26,042 nucleotides of DNA from a virus. A program made the translations under genes and the position numbers. Under the pieces are notes generated by a model that searched no databases, was not told the origin of the DNA, and saw only the letters and a list, made by a program, of their open reading frames with translations. Positions 1-21,327 of the stretch are shown one piece after another. Location: positions 1-26,042 of IMG/VR virus record IMGVR_UViG_3300030943_000155; one strand, given 5' to 3'. Every line of letters begins with the position of its first letter. The first letter of the stretch is position 1.

Positions 1-3000
1 AGTCAAGCCATCTCTCATTACCTCTCTCAATCCTTTATATAGATCTGGATTTTTTGTTTGAATGGAATGTAAAAATTCATGACCGAGAACTCGCGTAACA
101 GCCTGCGCGTCTTCCACATCCTTTATAAATACCGTATTTGGCATATCACCGCGATACTTACCGTTTGCGATACTATCTCCAGAGTAAAAGACAACATCGA
201 GCCCTAACCTGCTACCGAGTTTTTGAACTTGGTGATGTCCAAATTTAAAATCTGTAACAACTTTAGCTCCGGGCATGATTGAAGAGAGCCGTTTTTGTGC
301 CTCTTCAGGAGTGATAACTGGGCGGGAAACGCTCGCGTCTTCTGGTTGAAATGCGTTTGTTTCAAGCATTGACCTTACAGAAGTTTCACCTTTTTGACGG
401 TATTCGTTTAACTGTTGTTGCTTTACCCAAATCTGACCCGCCGAAGATCTTACATCTGGTATGCCTTCGATGCCCATTACGGCGCGGACCTGTGCCGGAG
501 GAATCTTCAGTTCAGAGACGATCTGGCTGCGTGTCTTTCCTTGCTTAGCGAGTTTTACCACCTCTGTCGTCATACCTGCGTCAACAGCCATAGCGTAGTC
601 GGCCTCCATCTTCTGACGGAGACCCGGAAGCATCTTGGATGTATCACCTTTCCAAACGATCTCAGTGACCGCAGGAGTGGTAGTGGTCGTCGCTGGGACA
701 GCTTCAACTCCTTTTGTGGTTGCAACAACATCCGGTGCCTTTTTCGGTGGAAAATTAATCTTAACTGAACGATCATTCACTTTAGGCTGGTCGATCTTCA
801 CTTGGGCCAGCTTGTCCTTGTATGTCGGAGCGGGTGCTGGTTTCTTGGATTCGGATCTCTGGAACTCAGATACCCGGTTGGCCTGTGCCTTGGCTTCAAC
901 TTGGCCCATGATGTCAGGAGAGGCTGTGCCATCTTGGATAGACTTCAGTAGATTCTCGGGAGTCAGGGTGTCAATGGCGTCTTGATTGGCCTCCCACGAC
1001 TTCATGTCTGTGGCGTTGGGTGTTTCGGATTCCAATCGAGCGCGTTCGTTCTCCACCAAGCGTGTCAGCATTGGCACTGCTGCGTTTTTAATCTCATTAG
1101 GTTTAAAGTTACCTTGAGGTACATTCAATGGCTCAGATTTGGTCGTAGCGACTTCCTGCGCCTTGGCTGTGCGCTGTTCAGACTCATTCCAGATCTTTTC
1201 GTAGGCTTGTTGAAGCTGAGGGCTCGAATTAGCTATCTCCCCACCAAATAGATCCTGATACGTCTGTTGTTGATTCTCTCTATCTTTTTGAGCGAGCATG
1301 TCAGGATTTGCCTTGTCAACGCCTTGCTGAATGACTTGAGTCTGTCCAGGAACAGCCGGCTGACCGGGAGTCGTGATAGTCTTCTCTGGTTGGCGAACGA
1401 CGTTTTCTACAGAGATTCCCGGACGTGTTTTTTCATTGACGAAATCAATTGCTTTCCCGGCACCGTTGAGTATTGCTTTTGGAGCCTCTACAATACCACC
1501 GCCAAGAATTGACGCCGGACCTGCGACCGCCATGGCGTTAAGATCATTTGCCGGATTGATGATGCTTTGTTCGTTGGGATTCATTGAGAACACTTTGATG
1601 TCTTGACCACCGACAAATTTATTGACAGCTCCCTCCCACCAGTTCTGAGGAACTTCCTCCCACATTTCTCCGAAGGTTGACTTTGCGTAGTCAACAGCCT
1701 TGCCTATGCCACCTTCGCGATACAATTTATTGATACCTCCACCCTCAAGGATGGATTGACCATAAGCATCCATGAACGCGGTAAACGTAGCACGGAGATC
1801 ATCCATGCCGGATGCGAGATTGCTCTGATAGGCTTGCGCGAATATCTTCATTCCCATAGGAACCGTCTCTGGGCTAACCAATGCTTTTTTAGCAATGGTA
1901 GCCATGGCTATATTCCTAGTTTCTTTTTTTGCAAGCATTTTACCAAGCTCTTTAAATCCAATAGAGGTCGCTTCACCTGCGGTGCTACCTCCACCAGTTA
2001 AGACTGCGAGACCGATGGTTCCGACCATATAAGGAATAACAGAAGCTACCTGTGCGACAAACTTGTTGTCTGCTAATCCAACCATGTCGCCGGACTTCTG
2101 CATTGTTTTCCCACCCTGAGCAATAAGTTCAGATCCGGACTTCCTTGCGGTTTCGGCTTGAGATATTCCTTGAGCGAGATTCTGCTCGACGTTCTTACCA
2201 AAAGAACCGGCCCCACCAATAGATTGACCTAAGGCCATGAATGGATCAGAACCTGATCTCATAGCTTCGCCTGAAGCCAATGGAGATCCAATCTTGCCTG
2301 CCATGGTTTCCAATGTTCCTTGGGTACTTACGAGCGAAGACTTCAACCCGGTTTCTAAATCTCTGAGTACGCCTTTTGGCATGGCTGAATCACGGTTTAT
2401 TTGCGCGTCAAGTTCCGCGAGCTGTGACTTTCTCTCTGCCTCTGCAATAATACCCGGAAGCAGATTCTCTTTTAAAGCGGCGGCGTACTGAGGATTGGTT
2501 TGGTAGTTGTTCAGATCTGCTCTCGGCCTAGACATAGAGATATATTTAAGCCAAGACTGCTCGTCCTGAGGATTAAATGCTACCCTCGCCTTTGCTTGGT
2601 CCAATTCCAATCCTTTTCGAATCTCAGCTTGCGATGGAGGAGTCTTCATCAAGTCAGACTTCTTCTTAAGAATAGAGACCGCACTTGCAAAATTCGTTGG
2701 TGACGTTGGATTGTTTTTGGCATATGAGGAGTTTTTATACGCAGATTCAAGTCCGTCTTGTTCATTAAGAAGCGCATTTTTATAATCCACATCAAGCGTC
2801 TTGATTGCCAGTTCATGTTCTTTTTTCGCATCAAGGTACCTTTTGTTCACCTCTGCGGGATCAATTGGTTGAAATGCTGTCGGAACGACATGTTGACCCA
2901 TTCGCATCTGATCCACAGATTTTGGTTGGTCAAATGTTGAAACTGCCGACTGCACCACGGATTTTACAGGTGCTTGCATCCCGATAGGGGAAGGCGCTTG

Positions 3001-3180
3001 TACATTTGATTGAACAGGTGCTTGAGAGATAGGAACCGTTCCCTCAGGAACGACATGTTGACCCATTCGCATCTCGTCATTCTGTATGCGAGAGAGCAGT
3101 GGGTTCTTGTAGGATGTAGAGTTTTCGGACGCAGAGGCAGACTCCTTGCGAAGTCTGTCTAAATACGCGTTTCCAGCCAT
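1..3180 (-). CDS. Very large internal virion/polyvalent protein with HExxH metallopeptidase motif (3' end beyond window)
   Basis: The frame is open from ATG at 3180 (good SD, GAGGAGG 8 nt upstream) to the window edge, giving 1060 visible codons and no stop. The N-terminus (about 1-110) is low complexity, rich in Gln, Pro, Ser and Val, and holds a repeated peptide MRMGQHVVP (37-45 and 92-100). Residues 120-360 are helical and Ala/Glu/Lys rich. A Gly-rich hydrophobic stretch lies at 381-398, followed by more helical sequence with a WEEVPQ motif. Residues 875-903 look like a small helix-turn-helix. The last 80 residues resemble zincin metallopeptidases of phage polyvalent proteins, with H1034-E-F-L-H1038 at 67-81. 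Last in the tail gene order, where P22-like phages keep ejection proteins, it is probably packaged in the particle and delivered to the cell. That role is inference; the open frame and HExxH are seen directly. Confidence 0.85.
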   Translation of the reverse strand, partial: MAGNAYLDRLRKESASASENSTSYKNPLLSRIQNDEMRMGQHVVPEGTVPISQAPVQSNVQAPSPIGMQAPVKSVVQSAVSTFDQPKSVDQMRMGQHVVPTAFQPIDPAEVNKRYLDAKKEHELAIKTLDVDYKNALLNEQDGLESAYKNSSYAKNNPTSPTNFASAVSILKKKSDLMKTPPSQAEIRKGLELDQAKARVAFNPQDEQSWLKYISMSRPRADLNNYQTNPQYAAALKENLLPGIIAEAERKSQLAELDAQINRDSAMPKGVLRDLETGLKSSLVSTQGTLETMAGKIGSPLASGEAMRSGSDPFMALGQSIGGAGSFGKNVEQNLAQGISQAETARKSGSELIAQGGKTMQKSGDMVGLADNKFVAQVASVIPYMVGTIGLAVLTGGGSTAGEATSIGFKELGKMLAKKETRNIAMATIAKKALVSPETVPMGMKIFAQAYQSNLASGMDDLRATFTAFMDAYGQSILEGGGINKLYREGGIGKAVDYAKSTFGEMWEEVPQNWWEGAVNKFVGGQDIKVFSMNPNEQSIINPANDLNAMAVAGPASILGGGIVEAPKAILNGAGKAIDFVNEKTRPGISVENVVRQPEKTITTPGQPAVPGQTQVIQQGVDKANPDMLAQKDRENQQQTYQDLFGGEIANSSPQLQQAYEKIWNESEQRTAKAQEVATTKSEPLNVPQGNFKPNEIKNAAVPMLTRLVENERARLESETPNATDMKSWEANQDAIDTLTPENLLKSIQDGTASPDIMGQVEAKAQANRVSEFQRSESKKPAPAPTYKDKLAQVKIDQPKVNDRSVKINFPPKKAPDVVATTKGVEAVPATTTTTPAVTEIVWKGDTSKMLPGLRQKMEADYAMAVDAGMTTEVVKLAKQGKTRSQIVSELKIPPAQVRAVMGIEGIPDVRSSAGQIWVKQQQLNEYRQKGETSVRSMLETNAFQPEDASVSRPVITPEEAQKRLSSIMPGAKVVTDFKFGHHQVQKLGSRLGLDVVFYSGDSIANGKYRGDMPNTVFIKDVEDAQAVTRVLGHEFLHSIQTKNPDLYKGLREVMRDGLT
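2882..3074. repeat. 28-bp direct repeat pair inside the large virion protein gene
   Basis: An identical 28-bp segment is present at 2882-2909 and 3047-3074, 165 bp apart and in the same reading frame. It encodes the repeated peptide MRMGQHVVP in the low-complexity N-terminal part of the large protein. The spacing is a multiple of three, so recombination between the copies would remove 55 codons without a frameshift. Confidence 0.9.
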
Positions 3181-17685: not shown

Positions 17686-19205
17686 ACCTGTTTCAGCCCT
17701 CCTCCTCGTTTTGGCTTGGATAGAGATGCAAGCTTTTCCTTTACTCTCTTGTCCAAACTGTGGCCGTGCTCATCCTCTGGTGGTTTGGTGTTGGTGTAGT
17801 AAATAAATCGGTTAAGAGCCTGTGTAGTGCTGTCTACCTCGTCGTCATGTGCTCCGTTCGGGAAAGCACACATCTCGTCCATATACTCGACTACCCATGG
17901 CGCTATTGATGCATCCGGCAGGTACACGTTGCCACTCTCAAAGGCAGGTGCCACAGCGTTTGCTCTAGCTATCTTTCCTCCATCCGGCTCCACGGCTACC
18001 ATGCCGGGGATCTTAACCTGCAGCATTTGGATGACGGCAGATCCGTTTGCTTTGTCCTCTACGAGTTTAAGCAATGCTCTGGGCCATTTAGCTGACATCT
18101 GTAGTATAGCTGACATTGTCTCAACGATACCCAATCGCTCCTTAATACGGTCGAGCAAGTAGTAGTTTGAGCCTACTCTGCCCCACACTTGACCAGTTAC
18201 ATAGTCGCTGTCGTCCTTGTCCTTGAACGTGCAGTCCCATGATTGGATCACGTCGTCAAACTGTGTCGGCAGCCTCTCGAAGTTCTGCAGCGTAGGTGAA
18301 TGGTTTTCGTCAGTTATAGGATCGCGCGTGTAGAACTTAAACCAGCGACGTTTGAATATGTTGCCCTCTTGGGCTGTTGGATGCCCTTGGTACAGCGCTT
18401 GCCATACCCGGCTGCCTTCCTTGGTCTCATAAACCTTCTTGAACTTACGCATCCACTCGGTATCTTTGCCAAGCACAACGCCAAGCGCTTCACCCGGTTC
18501 TCGGAAGACAGGATCATCATCCTCTGCTTCACACGGGATGTTGAGGACCTTGACTACAGATCCCTCGTTTTTGATCATACGAGCGACAAGATCATCCTCA
18601 TGCCATCGTGTCATGATAACGATTGTCTTGCCCTTGGCGCTGAGACGGGTCCTGATCGAGTTCAGCCACTCATCCCAGACTCGTTCACGATAGATCTCTG
18701 ATTCAGCCTCTTGACGATTCTTTACAGGGTCATCAATGACGATAAGATCTGCAGGATTTCCTGTAATAGCACCACCGACACCCTTGGATAACATGCCTCC
18801 GACACCGTTATCAAGTTCCCATTCAGTCGTGCTGCCAGTTGACTTGGATAGAGAAATGTCAAAGAACTTCTGGCCAAACTCGATGATCTTCTCGCGGTTC
18901 CTGCGGCCAAACTTCTGGGCGAAGTCATCGTTATAGCTGACCTCAATCACTCGGCGAGTCTTATGCTTTCCTATGTACCACGATGGCAGAGTCTCTGTGA
19001 GGCTCATAGACTTACCGTGCTGCGGAGGTAGGCTGATGCAGAAGATTGTATACTCCGTCTGTGTATCCTCAAGAAAAGCCTGTACTTCATCGCACAAGAA
19101 CGTCAAATAAGGAGCGGATATCCACCGTCCTCTATGTACGTATTTGACGTACCTCCAGTATCTAATGTTTGCCAGTTGTCGCTCTACCTGCTGCAGAGAT
19201 ATCAT
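17682..19205 (-). CDS. terL: Terminase large subunit (ATPase-nuclease)
   Basis: 507 residues. I chose ATG 19205, which shares its A with the terS stop (TGATG) and has AAGGAG 5 nt upstream; a TTG one codon earlier is possible but less likely. The ATPase part has Walker A PPQHGKSMS at 60-68, a Walker B LIVIDDP at 154-160, and a coupling motif IVIMTRWHEDD. The nuclease part has the expected acidic residues: SWD (D324), VEDK (E383) and HDDEVD (454-458 region). The enzyme cuts concatemers and pumps DNA into the procapsid with the portal. The length is normal for the family and no lesion is visible. Confidence 0.95.
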   Translation of the reverse strand: MISLQQVERQLANIRYWRYVKYVHRGRWISAPYLTFLCDEVQAFLEDTQTEYTIFCISLPPQHGKSMSLTETLPSWYIGKHKTRRVIEVSYNDDFAQKFGRRNREKIIEFGQKFFDISLSKSTGSTTEWELDNGVGGMLSKGVGGAITGNPADLIVIDDPVKNRQEAESEIYRERVWDEWLNSIRTRLSAKGKTIVIMTRWHEDDLVARMIKNEGSVVKVLNIPCEAEDDDPVFREPGEALGVVLGKDTEWMRKFKKVYETKEGSRVWQALYQGHPTAQEGNIFKRRWFKFYTRDPITDENHSPTLQNFERLPTQFDDVIQSWDCTFKDKDDSDYVTGQVWGRVGSNYYLLDRIKERLGIVETMSAILQMSAKWPRALLKLVEDKANGSAVIQMLQVKIPGMVAVEPDGGKIARANAVAPAFESGNVYLPDASIAPWVVEYMDEMCAFPNGAHDDEVDSTTQALNRFIYYTNTKPPEDEHGHSLDKRVKEKLASLSKPKRGGGLKQV

Positions 19206-19711
19206 CAAGTCTCCTTGCCACTATTGTAGATAGCTTCGATCTGAGCGAGCTGCTCTTCTGATAGGTTCGTCTCTACCTTGACTTCAATTGGATTGCCGGG
19301 TTGACCACCGACATTGACATTCTTCTGATCGATGTATCCCTTGGCATTGTTTGTGACGTAGAACTGAGCACCGCTGTTGTTACCAACGCGAGCGAGCCTG
19401 CGCTCCCACTGAGATAAGATCTTGAGCTTTGCCTCTTCGATAATCTCGTCAAATCCATCCCGCTCTTGATAATTAAGGATAGACTGTCTGCCTCCACGCA
19501 GGCCAATGTGCAGCGCGAGATCCGTGAGCGTGTATGGAATGGGATCTGGGACTTCGCTCACGATGGCGTTTGCTCCATCACCAAGCAGCTTATCTGTCCT
19601 GTTTGTGTCGCACGCCTTAAAATAAGAGTCAATTCTTTCCTGTAATTCCTCTGGCGTCTTGATCTTATACTTCCCTAGACACCTAGAGTTATCCTTACCA
19701 GTTTCTGACAT
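19205..19711 (-). CDS. terS: Terminase small subunit
   Basis: 168 residues, with GAGGAGGTATTTAAT before ATG. It matches the DNA-packaging small subunit family: KYKIKTPEELQERIDSYFKAC near the start, PYTLTDLALHIGLRGGRQSILNYQ (a helix-turn-helix DNA-binding unit at about 57-82), FDEIIEEAKLKILSQWERRL, and a GAQFYVTNNAKGYIDQK segment toward the end, with an acidic C-terminus. It binds the packaging site and recruits terL. It is the first gene of the minus-strand structural operon, next to the divergent intergenic region. Confidence 0.92.
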   Translation of the reverse strand: MSETGKDNSRCLGKYKIKTPEELQERIDSYFKACDTNRTDKLLGDGANAIVSEVPDPIPYTLTDLALHIGLRGGRQSILNYQERDGFDEIIEEAKLKILSQWERRLARVGNNSGAQFYVTNNAKGYIDQKNVNVGGQPGNPIEVKVETNLSEEQLAQIEAIYNSGKET

Positions 19712-19735: not shown

Positions 19736-19741
19736 ATTATA
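19736..19741 (-). promoter_or_regulatory. Candidate -10 box for the structural operon
   Basis: TATAAT on the minus strand (plus ATTATA), about 25 bp upstream of the terS ATG. The only TTG-type -35 (TTGCAG, plus 19762-19767) is 20 bp away, longer than the best 17 bp spacing, so this promoter is weak or needs an activator. It is a plausible late promoter but unproven. Confidence 0.35.
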
Positions 19742-19787
19742 GTCATTATGCGTGTCCTATCCTGCAACCGAGGAGGATTATGTAGCT

Positions 19788-19877
19788 ATGGCAACCAACC
19801 GCAGAAACGCTATTGACCCTTTTCGGGTCATGTTGTATAATTGCCTCAAGGCCCATTATAATCGTTGTCGCCCTTGA
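19788..19877 (+). CDS. Possible 29-residue leader peptide
   Basis: An ATG at 19788, 11 nt after AGGAGG, opens a basic peptide that begins MATNRRNAIDPFRV and stops at 19877. It overlaps the strong promoter that drives the downstream cassette, so it could only be made from an upstream start site. It might be a leader peptide or chance; treat it as low confidence. Confidence 0.2.
   Translation: MATNRRNAIDPFRVMLYNCLKAHYNRCRP
19813..19841 (+). promoter_or_regulatory. Strong sigma70-type promoter of the plus-strand cassette
   Basis: TTGACC (-35, 19813-19818), a 17-bp spacer and TATAAT (-10, 19836-19841) give an almost ideal vegetative promoter. Transcription should start near 19848, about 50 nt before the first plus-strand gene. 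A second TATAAT at 19857-19862, preceded by TTGTAT at 19833-19838 (18-bp spacer), may be an overlapping second promoter. Confidence 0.85.
19814..19830. promoter_or_regulatory. Palindrome over the -35/spacer (likely operator)
   Basis: TGACCC - TTTTC - GGGTCA is a perfect 6-bp dyad that covers five bases of the -35 box and most of the spacer. A dimeric repressor bound here would block RNA polymerase. No partner protein is identified. Confidence 0.5.
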
Positions 19878-19881
19878 GGCA
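19842..19881. promoter_or_regulatory. Second inverted repeat at the transcription start
   Basis: TGCCTCAAGG (19842-19851) and CCTTGAGGCA (19872-19881) are a perfect 10-bp inverted repeat with a 20-nt spacer that contains the second TATAAT. If transcription begins near 19848 the left arm would be only partly in the RNA, so a DNA-level operator with two half-sites fits better than an RNA hairpin. Confidence 0.5.
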
Positions 19882-20055
19882 GAAAGAGAGCAAATTATGT
19901 GTGATACAAACTGTGTAGACTGCAAACGGTATTACTCATGTAAATCTGAAATGAAACTAGAAGAGGCAATAAGAGATTTTTGGTTAAACGAACGCGAGGC
20001 AAATGAAGAGGTCGAAGAACAATAAGTCGCCTGAGGGCAGAAGGAGCGCATTATG
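19869..20055 (+). repeat. Duplicated leader/RBS element in front of two cassette genes
   Basis: The leaders at 19869-19899 and 20028-20055 read alike: CGCC, TGAGG, GGCAGAA, then AGAG or GGAG, then GCA and ATTATG with a few indels. The resemblance points to a duplicated translation-start unit that drives separate small genes. Confidence 0.5.
19897..20025 (+). CDS. 42-residue Cys-rich mini-protein
   Basis: ATG 19897 follows AGAAAGAGAG. I prefer it to a longer frame from 19813, which would begin inside the promoter. The N-terminus has four Cys spaced C-x3-C-x2-C-x5-C (residues 2, 6, 9, 15), which could bind one zinc. The remainder is a strongly acidic helix rich in Glu (EEAIRDFWLNEREANEEVEEQ-like). 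First gene of the plus-strand cassette. No family recognised. The acidic helix is the kind of feature seen in DNA-mimic or anti-defence peptides, but that is only a thought. Confidence 0.65.
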   Translation: MCDTNCVDCKRYYSCKSEMKLEEAIRDFWLNEREANEEVEEQ

Positions 20056-20511
20056 AAGACAATCACACTCGAAGAGGCCATCCACCTGATCCAACACAGG
20101 AACGGTCCGCACAAAACTCAATACATCCCGGTTTCCAATCGCTCAACTCAGGTTTATCAAATTGAAGGTACAGATATCCAACTCACCCTATGTTGTAAAG
20201 AGTATTCTCACACATGGCAGACATGGAAATACTGGCTTGAGGACTCAAACACAGGAAACACCTACATGGATATCCGCTATCTCAAGAGGCTACTTAAACG
20301 CAATCAGATTGAGGGCAAAAAATGGGGAGATCTAACCAAGTCACAGCAGACGGCATTCCTTGCAAAATCCAACGTGTCCGACACAGGCAAGAGTGGGAAA
20401 TTCCTCGTAGACTCCGGTAAATACACGGTCTCCGGGACAGTCATTGAAACCGAGTATGAAACATTGATTGAAATTAATGATGACGCAGTTATCTATGATC
20501 CAGCGAAGTGA
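20053..20511 (+). CDS. 152-residue protein of unknown function
   Basis: ATG at 20053 with AGAAGGAGCGCATT upstream, a good SD. The N-terminal 100 residues are alpha/beta, with YIPVSNRSTQVYQIEG, a pair of Cys (CC at 47-48), and aromatic residues HTWQTWKYWLED. A Lys-rich helix follows (YLKRLLKRNQIEGKKW). The C-terminal 45 residues look like a small beta hairpin unit (KFLVDSGKYTVSGTVIETEYETLIEI). No catalytic motif or membrane segment is visible. It is the largest gene in the inverted cassette and is spaced 27 bp from the previous gene. Confidence 0.75.
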   Translation: MKTITLEEAIHLIQHRNGPHKTQYIPVSNRSTQVYQIEGTDIQLTLCCKEYSHTWQTWKYWLEDSNTGNTYMDIRYLKRLLKRNQIEGKKWGDLTKSQQTAFLAKSNVSDTGKSGKFLVDSGKYTVSGTVIETEYETLIEINDDAVIYDPAK

Positions 20512-20524
20512 AGGAGGTAGTCAT

Positions 20525-20773
20525 ATGAATAAGCAATTAGTTGCAGCAGTTAACAGGTCAAACCAAGTTAAAAACAACATGATGACAAATCTATCTTATG
20601 CCCTCAAGTTCAATCAATCAAGCGTGAACGAACTCTACCACCAGATTAAAGGCCACATAACAGGAGTTGTAATCGCACTCAATGGTTACTGCTACGGAAG
20701 CGATGATGTCAAATTTCTTGGTGATTGGCGAGATAGCGCAATCGATGACCTCGAAATTCTTAGATGGAGGTAG
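20525..20773 (+). CDS. 82-residue protein of unknown function
   Basis: Start ATG 20525 with AAGGAGGTAGTCAT, so a longer frame beginning at 20468 inside the previous gene is rejected. The N-terminal half is helical, rich in Asn and Gln (MNKQLVAAVNRSNQVKN). The remainder has a mixed pattern ending DWRDSAIDDLEILRWR. No family is recognised. It lies 13 bp after the previous gene and 4 bp before the next, so it belongs to one transcript. Confidence 0.7.
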   Translation: MNKQLVAAVNRSNQVKNNMMTNLSYALKFNQSSVNELYHQIKGHITGVVIALNGYCYGSDDVKFLGDWRDSAIDDLEILRWR

Positions 20774-20777
20774 CCGA

Positions 20778-20963
20778 ATGAAAAGGTGCAAATGTGATCC
20801 ATCAGACCGCCGGGTGTTGTTTTTGAATCTGAACGGGCAGAACCTGTACATGTGCTGCAAGTGCGGTAGGTACCACGACTCAAGACAAAGAGAGTCATCA
20901 ATCGTGTTCTGGTCCATCTTCTGGGGGGTATTCGTTTCATTCTTAATTTTACTAGCAGATTAA
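20778..20963 (+). CDS. Zinc-ribbon plus single membrane helix protein
   Basis: 61 residues, GGAGG 7 nt before ATG. The N-terminal part has C-x-C (4, 6) and CC-x-C (26, 27, 29), a small zinc-ribbon-like pair. Residues 43-60 (VFWSIFWGVFVSFLILLA) form one membrane helix at the C-terminus, so the Cys domain should face the cytoplasm. The last gene before the terminator. It could be a membrane-anchored regulatory, holin-like or exclusion protein. Function is not determined. Confidence 0.75.
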   Translation: MKRCKCDPSDRRVLFLNLNGQNLYMCCKCGRYHDSRQRESSIVFWSIFWGVFVSFLILLAD

Positions 20964-20972
20964 ATTTCAAAT

Positions 20973-21002
20973 AAAAAAGCACCTTTTGCAGGGTGCTTTT
21001 TT
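20973..21002. terminator. Bidirectional intrinsic terminator
   Basis: AAAAAAGCACC - TTTTGCAG - GGTGCTTTTTT is an 11-bp stem with an 8-nt loop and runs of A and T on the two sides, so it can stop transcription of both the plus-strand cassette and the convergent minus-strand operon. It lies 10 nt after the last plus gene and 20 nt from the minus gene's stop. Confidence 0.92.
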
Positions 21003-21021
21003 CCATTATGTTCACACGTTC

Positions 21022-21327
21022 TCAGGTATCTTTTTGGGTCATGTTTGGATTTCCTCTTGGCCTACGTGGGATGCAATTTCGTACTAGTTTGCGGTGGATA
21101 CATCCCACGGAGCAGAAGCATTCATCAGCCATCTCACGAAGGGTCATCGTCTTTGCCATCTGCCTCAGTTTACGTTCTGACACTACAACCTCGTCAAGTA
21201 CAGTCCATCTGTAACTTATGATCCTGCGATTGATTGTATCCCGTGTCAGGCCTGTCTCCAGAGACAACTCATCCAGTGTAATCTTCTCAATGCAGTGTTT
21301 ATGCCACAAGTATCTAGTCAACTCCAT
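21022..21327 (-). CDS. Tandem helix-turn-helix DNA-binding protein
   Basis: 101 residues. Two HTH units are visible: 16-38 (ITLDELSLETGLTRDTINRRI) and 61-83 (TLREMADECFCSVGCIHRKLV). The latter carries two or three Cys. The C-terminus is basic (RRPRGNP). Similar tandem HTHs occur in phage regulators and in sigma-like late activators. Its ribosome site (GGGGGT) is weak. The last gene of the minus-strand early operon, it is a candidate activator of the structural operon or repressor of the inverted cassette. Confidence 0.78.
   Translation of the reverse strand: MELTRYLWHKHCIEKITLDELSLETGLTRDTINRRIISYRWTVLDEVVVSERKLRQMAKTMTLREMADECFCSVGCIHRKLVRNCIPRRPRGNPNMTQKDT

Follow-up and report, generated by a model that had tools for sequence, protein, structure and literature searches.

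Organization of the cassette

The stretch of viral DNA analysed here, referred to as the window, is a linear IMG/VR contig of 26,042 bp. All its credible genes lie on the minus strand, with the exception of a cassette of four small plus-strand genes placed between terS and the gene for a 101-aa HTH protein (Table 1). The minus-strand genes code for terminase, a P22-like portal protein, the major capsid protein and structural proteins, and, on the early side, for a nuclease of the Holliday-junction-resolvase type. Very large proteins (over 1000 to 2771 residues) are encoded downstream of the structural genes in the window (1-3180, minus strand) and in relatives (L105:103-7272, L109:9120-17435), and in the window the contig ends within the gene.

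Table 1. Features of the cassette and of its two flanks in the window.
Feature	Position	Strand	Description
terS, terminase small subunit	19205-19711	-	first gene of the late side
putative terS promoter	19736-19767	-	TTGCAG-N20-TATAAT, read by eye
cassette promoter	19813-19841	+	-35 TTGACC (19813-19818), -10 TATAAT (19836-19841), 17-nt spacer
putative palindromic operator	19814-19830		TGACCCTTTTCGGGTCA, overlaps the -35 hexamer
leader hairpin	19842-19881	+	TGCCTCAAGG...CCTTGAGGCA, in the 5' untranslated region; z -2.5
ORF1	19897-20025	+	42 aa, acidic (pI 4.4), four Cys, without family
ORF2	20053-20511	+	152 aa, without family
ORF3	20525-20773	+	82 aa, predicted three-helix bundle (AlphaFold2)
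ORF4	20778-20963	+	61 aa, CxC...CCxC cluster, C-terminal membrane helix
intrinsic terminator	20973-21002	+	bidirectional by sequence
101-aa HTH protein	21022-21327	-	last gene of the early side; kept in relatives with and without cassette

The four reading frames reported in the initial annotation (42, 152, 82 and 61 residues) were all located, and Shine-Dalgarno-like stretches precede each of them, that of ORF1 being the weakest. The codon-usage scores of ORF2 (0.253) and ORF3 (0.228) are phage-like and exceed the maximum (0.107) reached by the 107 other plus-strand ORFs with a length of 42 aa or more, which served as controls. Codon bias is neutral in ORF1 and, by the same score and against the same 107 control ORFs, gives no support to ORF4, so that the ORF4 call depends on its Shine-Dalgarno site, its Cys pattern and its membrane helix. 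The strong terminator described earlier was also recovered: its stem has a z of -3.8 and folds better than all 200 shuffled sequences. Since A- and T-runs flank it on both sides, the convergent early operon probably uses it as well. The 3' arm of the leader hairpin, together with the ribosome-binding site, is partly repeated upstream of ORF2. This partial repeat is weaker than the hairpins of a related cassette (L085:4060-4730), where a G+C-rich hairpin (AAAGGACCGGCGG...) precedes the ribosome site of genes 2 and 3. An Rfam search gave no match.

None of the four products has a recognisable family, as had been stated, since PHROGs, Pfam, PADLOC and NCBIfam gave no meaningful match, whether to an HTH family, to the AcrIC5 family PF22147 or to any known anti-defence family. 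The Cys-rich acidic product corresponds to ORF1, and the product with a Cys cluster and a membrane helix to ORF4, where the zinc-ribbon-like cluster is followed by a hydrophobic C-terminal helix (maximum KD19 2.46). Nothing above chance was found in phage records, either for ORF2, ORF3 and ORF4 at the protein level or by tblastn of ORF3 and ORF4, and single-sequence scans of viral contigs with ORF2, ORF3 or terS returned no match. A search of 398 genomes from the phylum to which a Bacillus sp. locus belongs gave no match for ORF2 and one weak match for terS (E=4e-4). The C-terminal half of ORF2 (residues 88-152) aligns in 74 columns, at 42% identity, with the N-terminal part of a hypothetical Terrisporobacter plasmid protein; as the collection-wide E-value is only 0.4, we take this similarity as a lead. 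Structure prediction, suggested in the initial annotation, was confident for ORF3, modelled as a three-helix bundle (pLDDT 91.8), but poor for ORF2 (pLDDT 51), and the PDB matches of the ORF2 model were discarded as meaningless for that reason. The fold search with the ORF3 model returned generic helical bundles, none with an E-value under 0.001, and no specific structural relative.

The same site in related phages

Relatives were gathered from viral contigs by TerL and by a terS alignment search; the same terS search of genome contigs gave no match. As far as their contigs reach, close relatives retain terS, TerL, portal, capsid and the HTH gene in this order. In the near-identical L002, L003 and L088, and in L082, the gap between the HTH gene and terS measures about 165 bp and holds the early-side terminator only, with no cassette, whereas in L004 and L084 (99.9% identical to each other), L005 and L085 it is filled by inverted cassettes of small genes. 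The window, L004, L005 and L085 thus have additional genes at the point where, in L002, L088 and L082, the HTH gene and terS are direct neighbours. Comparison of the proteins of different cassettes gave no convincing similarity. In all four cassettes G+C content is lower than in the surrounding phage DNA (0.429 against 0.462, 0.405 against 0.469, 0.455 against 0.553, and 0.506 against 0.587). A noncoding motif, TGTTCACAC, adjoins the terminator (window 21009-21017); L002, L082, L088 and L005 retain it and L085 has it in nearly the same form, so that it is present at occupied and empty sites alike.

The likeness to phage morons noted at the outset is therefore sustained by a site that is variably occupied or empty, by the cassette's own promoter and terminator at the sequence level, and by its lower G+C content. 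These observations support a real, moron-like, horizontally variable accessory cassette at the early/late junction of a tailed phage.

One of the sister cassettes carries a recognisable anti-CRISPR domain. Gene 2 of L085 codes for a protein of 194 aa (pI 4.1) that contains a complete AcrIC5 domain at its C-terminus, matching Pfam PF22147 over 53 of 53 positions (E=1.6e-20) and PDB entry 7yhr with E=4.5e-8; the roughly 130 residues that precede the domain match no family. AcrIC5 is an inhibitor of type I-C CRISPR, with homologues in Proteobacteria, Firmicutes and Actinobacteria (PMC7913775), and the L085 protein presumably blunts host defence. Among the four cassettes, that of L085 is the only one in which an anti-CRISPR domain can be recognised; the nine products of the sister cassettes gave no HTH or aca match. 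The anti-defence role that had been proposed is thus supported for the site; for the four genes of the window, it is their position and their promoter that suggest such a role.

The flanking HTH gene is retained in relatives that have neither cassette nor operator, so that a role in late transcription fits it better than that of a cassette repressor, and we regard it as a candidate late regulator. The putative terS promoter has a spacing unlike that of sigma70 promoters, which suggests the participation of an activator; counterparts (CCGTTGCGG-N20-TATAAT or TACAAT) were read by eye in L002, L082 and L085. A late promoter upstream of terS may be conserved; its TTGC(R) element would lie some 20-22 nt ahead of the -10 (CCGTTGCGG-N20-TATAAT in L002 and L082).

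Promoter, operator and early genes

The cassette promoter is the best in 4 kb and carries 11 of the 12 consensus bases, in agreement with the near-perfect sigma70 promoter first described, and the operator-like dyad seen there is a 17-bp palindrome, TGACCC-TTTTC-GGGTCA, lying over most of the -35. The dyad combined with a -10 at the right distance was encountered once in the window, and 2000 Markov shuffles of window size yielded it a single time in all. A palindrome of equal position and size, TGACGCA(NNN)TGCGTCA, is found in L004, L005 and L085, and the four cassettes have in common a promoter design in which a palindrome contains most of the -35 box. In the window palindrome (CCC/GGG), the inner portion of each arm is unlike that of the others. 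L005 carries two perfect copies of its palindrome at the cassette promoter (L005:529-586), and a further, almost matching copy lies where the HTH gene has its 3' end (L005:95-115).

The GC version of the operator, TTGACGCANNNTGCGTCA, followed by a -10 (pattern TTGACGCANNNTGCGTCAN{4,6}TATNNT), was found in only 4 of 2.9 million viral contigs, in every case at this site in this clade. It gave three scattered matches in about 85,000 genomes; as these are so few and belong to unrelated phyla, we judged it unlikely that the operator is the site of a host regulator. A wider operator pattern retrieved several more contigs, with an unrelated gene for a secreted-looking protein downstream, which were judged unrelated. 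A similar palindrome with promoter (TTGACGCATCCAGCGTCAT...TATAAT and variants), probably of independent origin, was seen in L115, L116, L120 and L122, and in L115, L116 and L122 a gene whose small product looks secreted lies downstream of it.

The early region could be compared in a single relative, L084, whose contig includes it as L105. There, TTGACGCATTATGGGTCA with a -10 is found at L105:7357, upstream of a 55-aa HTH_3 (Cro/Xre-type) gene that opens the early block, and again at L105:9812, upstream of a second block of early genes. When the four cassette promoters are aligned with these two, TTGAC, GTCAT and other dyad positions are common to all, and the spacing to the -10 is equal, that of L005 being one base longer. 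The second early promoter is nearly identical to the cassette promoter of that same phage, so that in L084 the cassette has a promoter and operator of the early-gene type. The window operator is a symmetric form of the TGACCC half found in L105. The window contig ends before its own early promoter region, and by analogy with L084/L105 its cassette may share promoter and operator with its own early genes as well.

The initial annotation had suggested early or lysogeny-independent expression. Early expression is backed indirectly, by the presence of the same promoter type at the head of the early operons of L105, the corresponding region of the window lying beyond the contig end. The second suggestion was not supported, as an operator common to the cassette and the early promoters points to control by a phage regulator.

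Proposed function and comparison with known systems

Anti-defence genes are small, change fast and are hard to detect by sequence. Here, position, the promoter/operator signature and one anti-CRISPR domain together nominate about a dozen small proteins in four cassettes, with no aca gene as bait. A site with an AcrIC5-bearing sister, with turnover of its content and with an early-type promoter makes the four products of the window good candidates for proteins that disarm immunity, and we consider it rather likely that the cassette is a moron-like anti-defence cassette tied to the early regulon of the phage and not to an aca gene. According to this model, host sigma70 RNA polymerase would read the cassette as soon as the DNA enters the cell, against the direction of the rest of the genome. 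A Cro/Xre-type protein from the start of the early operon, probably the regulator, would then bind the palindrome over the -35, and its accumulation would turn the cassette off together with the other early genes. With such a shut-off, the four small proteins would be produced in a pulse as infection begins, most likely to blunt host defences. A logic of this kind has been described for Aca proteins (PMC9410906) and for the early anti-defence genes of viruses of archaea (PMC11065993). Both the timing of expression and the identity of the repressor are what we infer from the arrangement in L105.

The same regulation could serve an early takeover of the host, the four proteins being directed at host transcription, replication or metabolism. 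The early-type promoter and the mixed character of the small products (acidic, zinc-ribbon-like, helical bundle) are in keeping with this, but the only recognisable product at the site is an anti-CRISPR domain, and a content that changes rapidly at a single site is better explained by an arms race than by host targets that stay fixed; we therefore hold host takeover to be unlikely. A lower probability is given to lysogenic conversion, in which expression from the prophage would exclude other phages or change the host, with ORF4 as the exclusion protein. The cassette does have its own promoter and terminator on the opposite strand, ORF4 and gene 2 of the L005 cassette each have one hydrophobic helix, and some relatives are temperate, L082 and L088 deriving from records with integrase, CI-like and Cro-like genes. 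However, the cassette is missing from these two relatives, which have a full lysogeny module, and their accessory bacterial defence genes lie elsewhere, downstream of the endolysin; this speaks mildly against a lysogenic role of the window cassette. Moreover, the cassette shares its operator with early promoters, and these one would expect to be silent in a lysogen, so that this reading seems quite improbable. The defence islands just after the endolysin in temperate relatives (L109:697-7460 and L106:4941-12152) include a C5 methylase, a nuclease with a FokI cleavage domain and Vsr, as a restriction system; SMEK_N and DUF2326 genes are also present in the L109 island, and a HATPase protein and a methyltransferase-like gene in that of L106. 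Finally, an autoregulated operon of the acr-aca type, with the convergent HTH gene or one of the four small proteins as regulator, would account for the palindrome over the -35, for the HTH gene next to the cassette and for a presumed recognition helix that changes in parallel with the operator (LTRDTINRRI in the window, LSRYQVHRAI in L004 with its GC operator), but it is very improbable given that L002, L082 and L088 retain the HTH gene without cassette or operator, that no HTH family matches any of the four products, and that the L105 operator heads an operon starting with an HTH_3 gene.

Returning to an anti-defence cassette within the early regulon, a more specific version can be put forward tentatively: the early/late junction of this clade may be reserved for anti-defence genes and marked by an early operator specific to the clade, and the four window proteins may be several unrelated, undescribed inhibitors, among them a three-helix bundle and a zinc-ribbon-like membrane protein. 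Should this be true, a search guided by the promoter would find new inhibitor families.

Among known systems, AcrIC5 (PF22147; PDB 7yhr; PMC7913775) is represented by the full-length domain that ends L085 gene 2 at the corresponding site, although it is absent from the window and in L085 follows about 130 family-less residues. Phage morons have in common with the cassette their own promoter and terminator, presence or absence at one junction and a lower G+C content, but whereas a moron runs freely in the lysogen, this cassette is probably under early phage control. In acr-aca operons (families Aca1 to Aca10; PMC9410906) Aca represses by way of an inverted repeat that lies in the core promoter, and the core promoter of the window cassette contains such a repeat; small genes and a sigma70 promoter are also shared, and a sister cassette (L085) carries an AcrIC5 domain. 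Unlike those operons, the four cassettes contain no aca gene that we could find, and the operator is common with early promoters in L105. Another parallel in regulation comes from archaeal viruses such as SIRV2, whose anti-defence genes share early promoters (PMC11065993). In both cases a regulatory sequence that early genes also have allows anti-defence candidates to be recognised, but here the viruses are tailed phages of bacteria, the promoter is of the sigma70 type, and a single opposite-strand cassette occupies one variable site. The kind of cassette is already known; what is new is the arrangement, a probable anti-defence slot under an early-type phage operator without an aca gene, which suggests that a bacterial phage can put its anti-defence genes directly under the early-gene switch.
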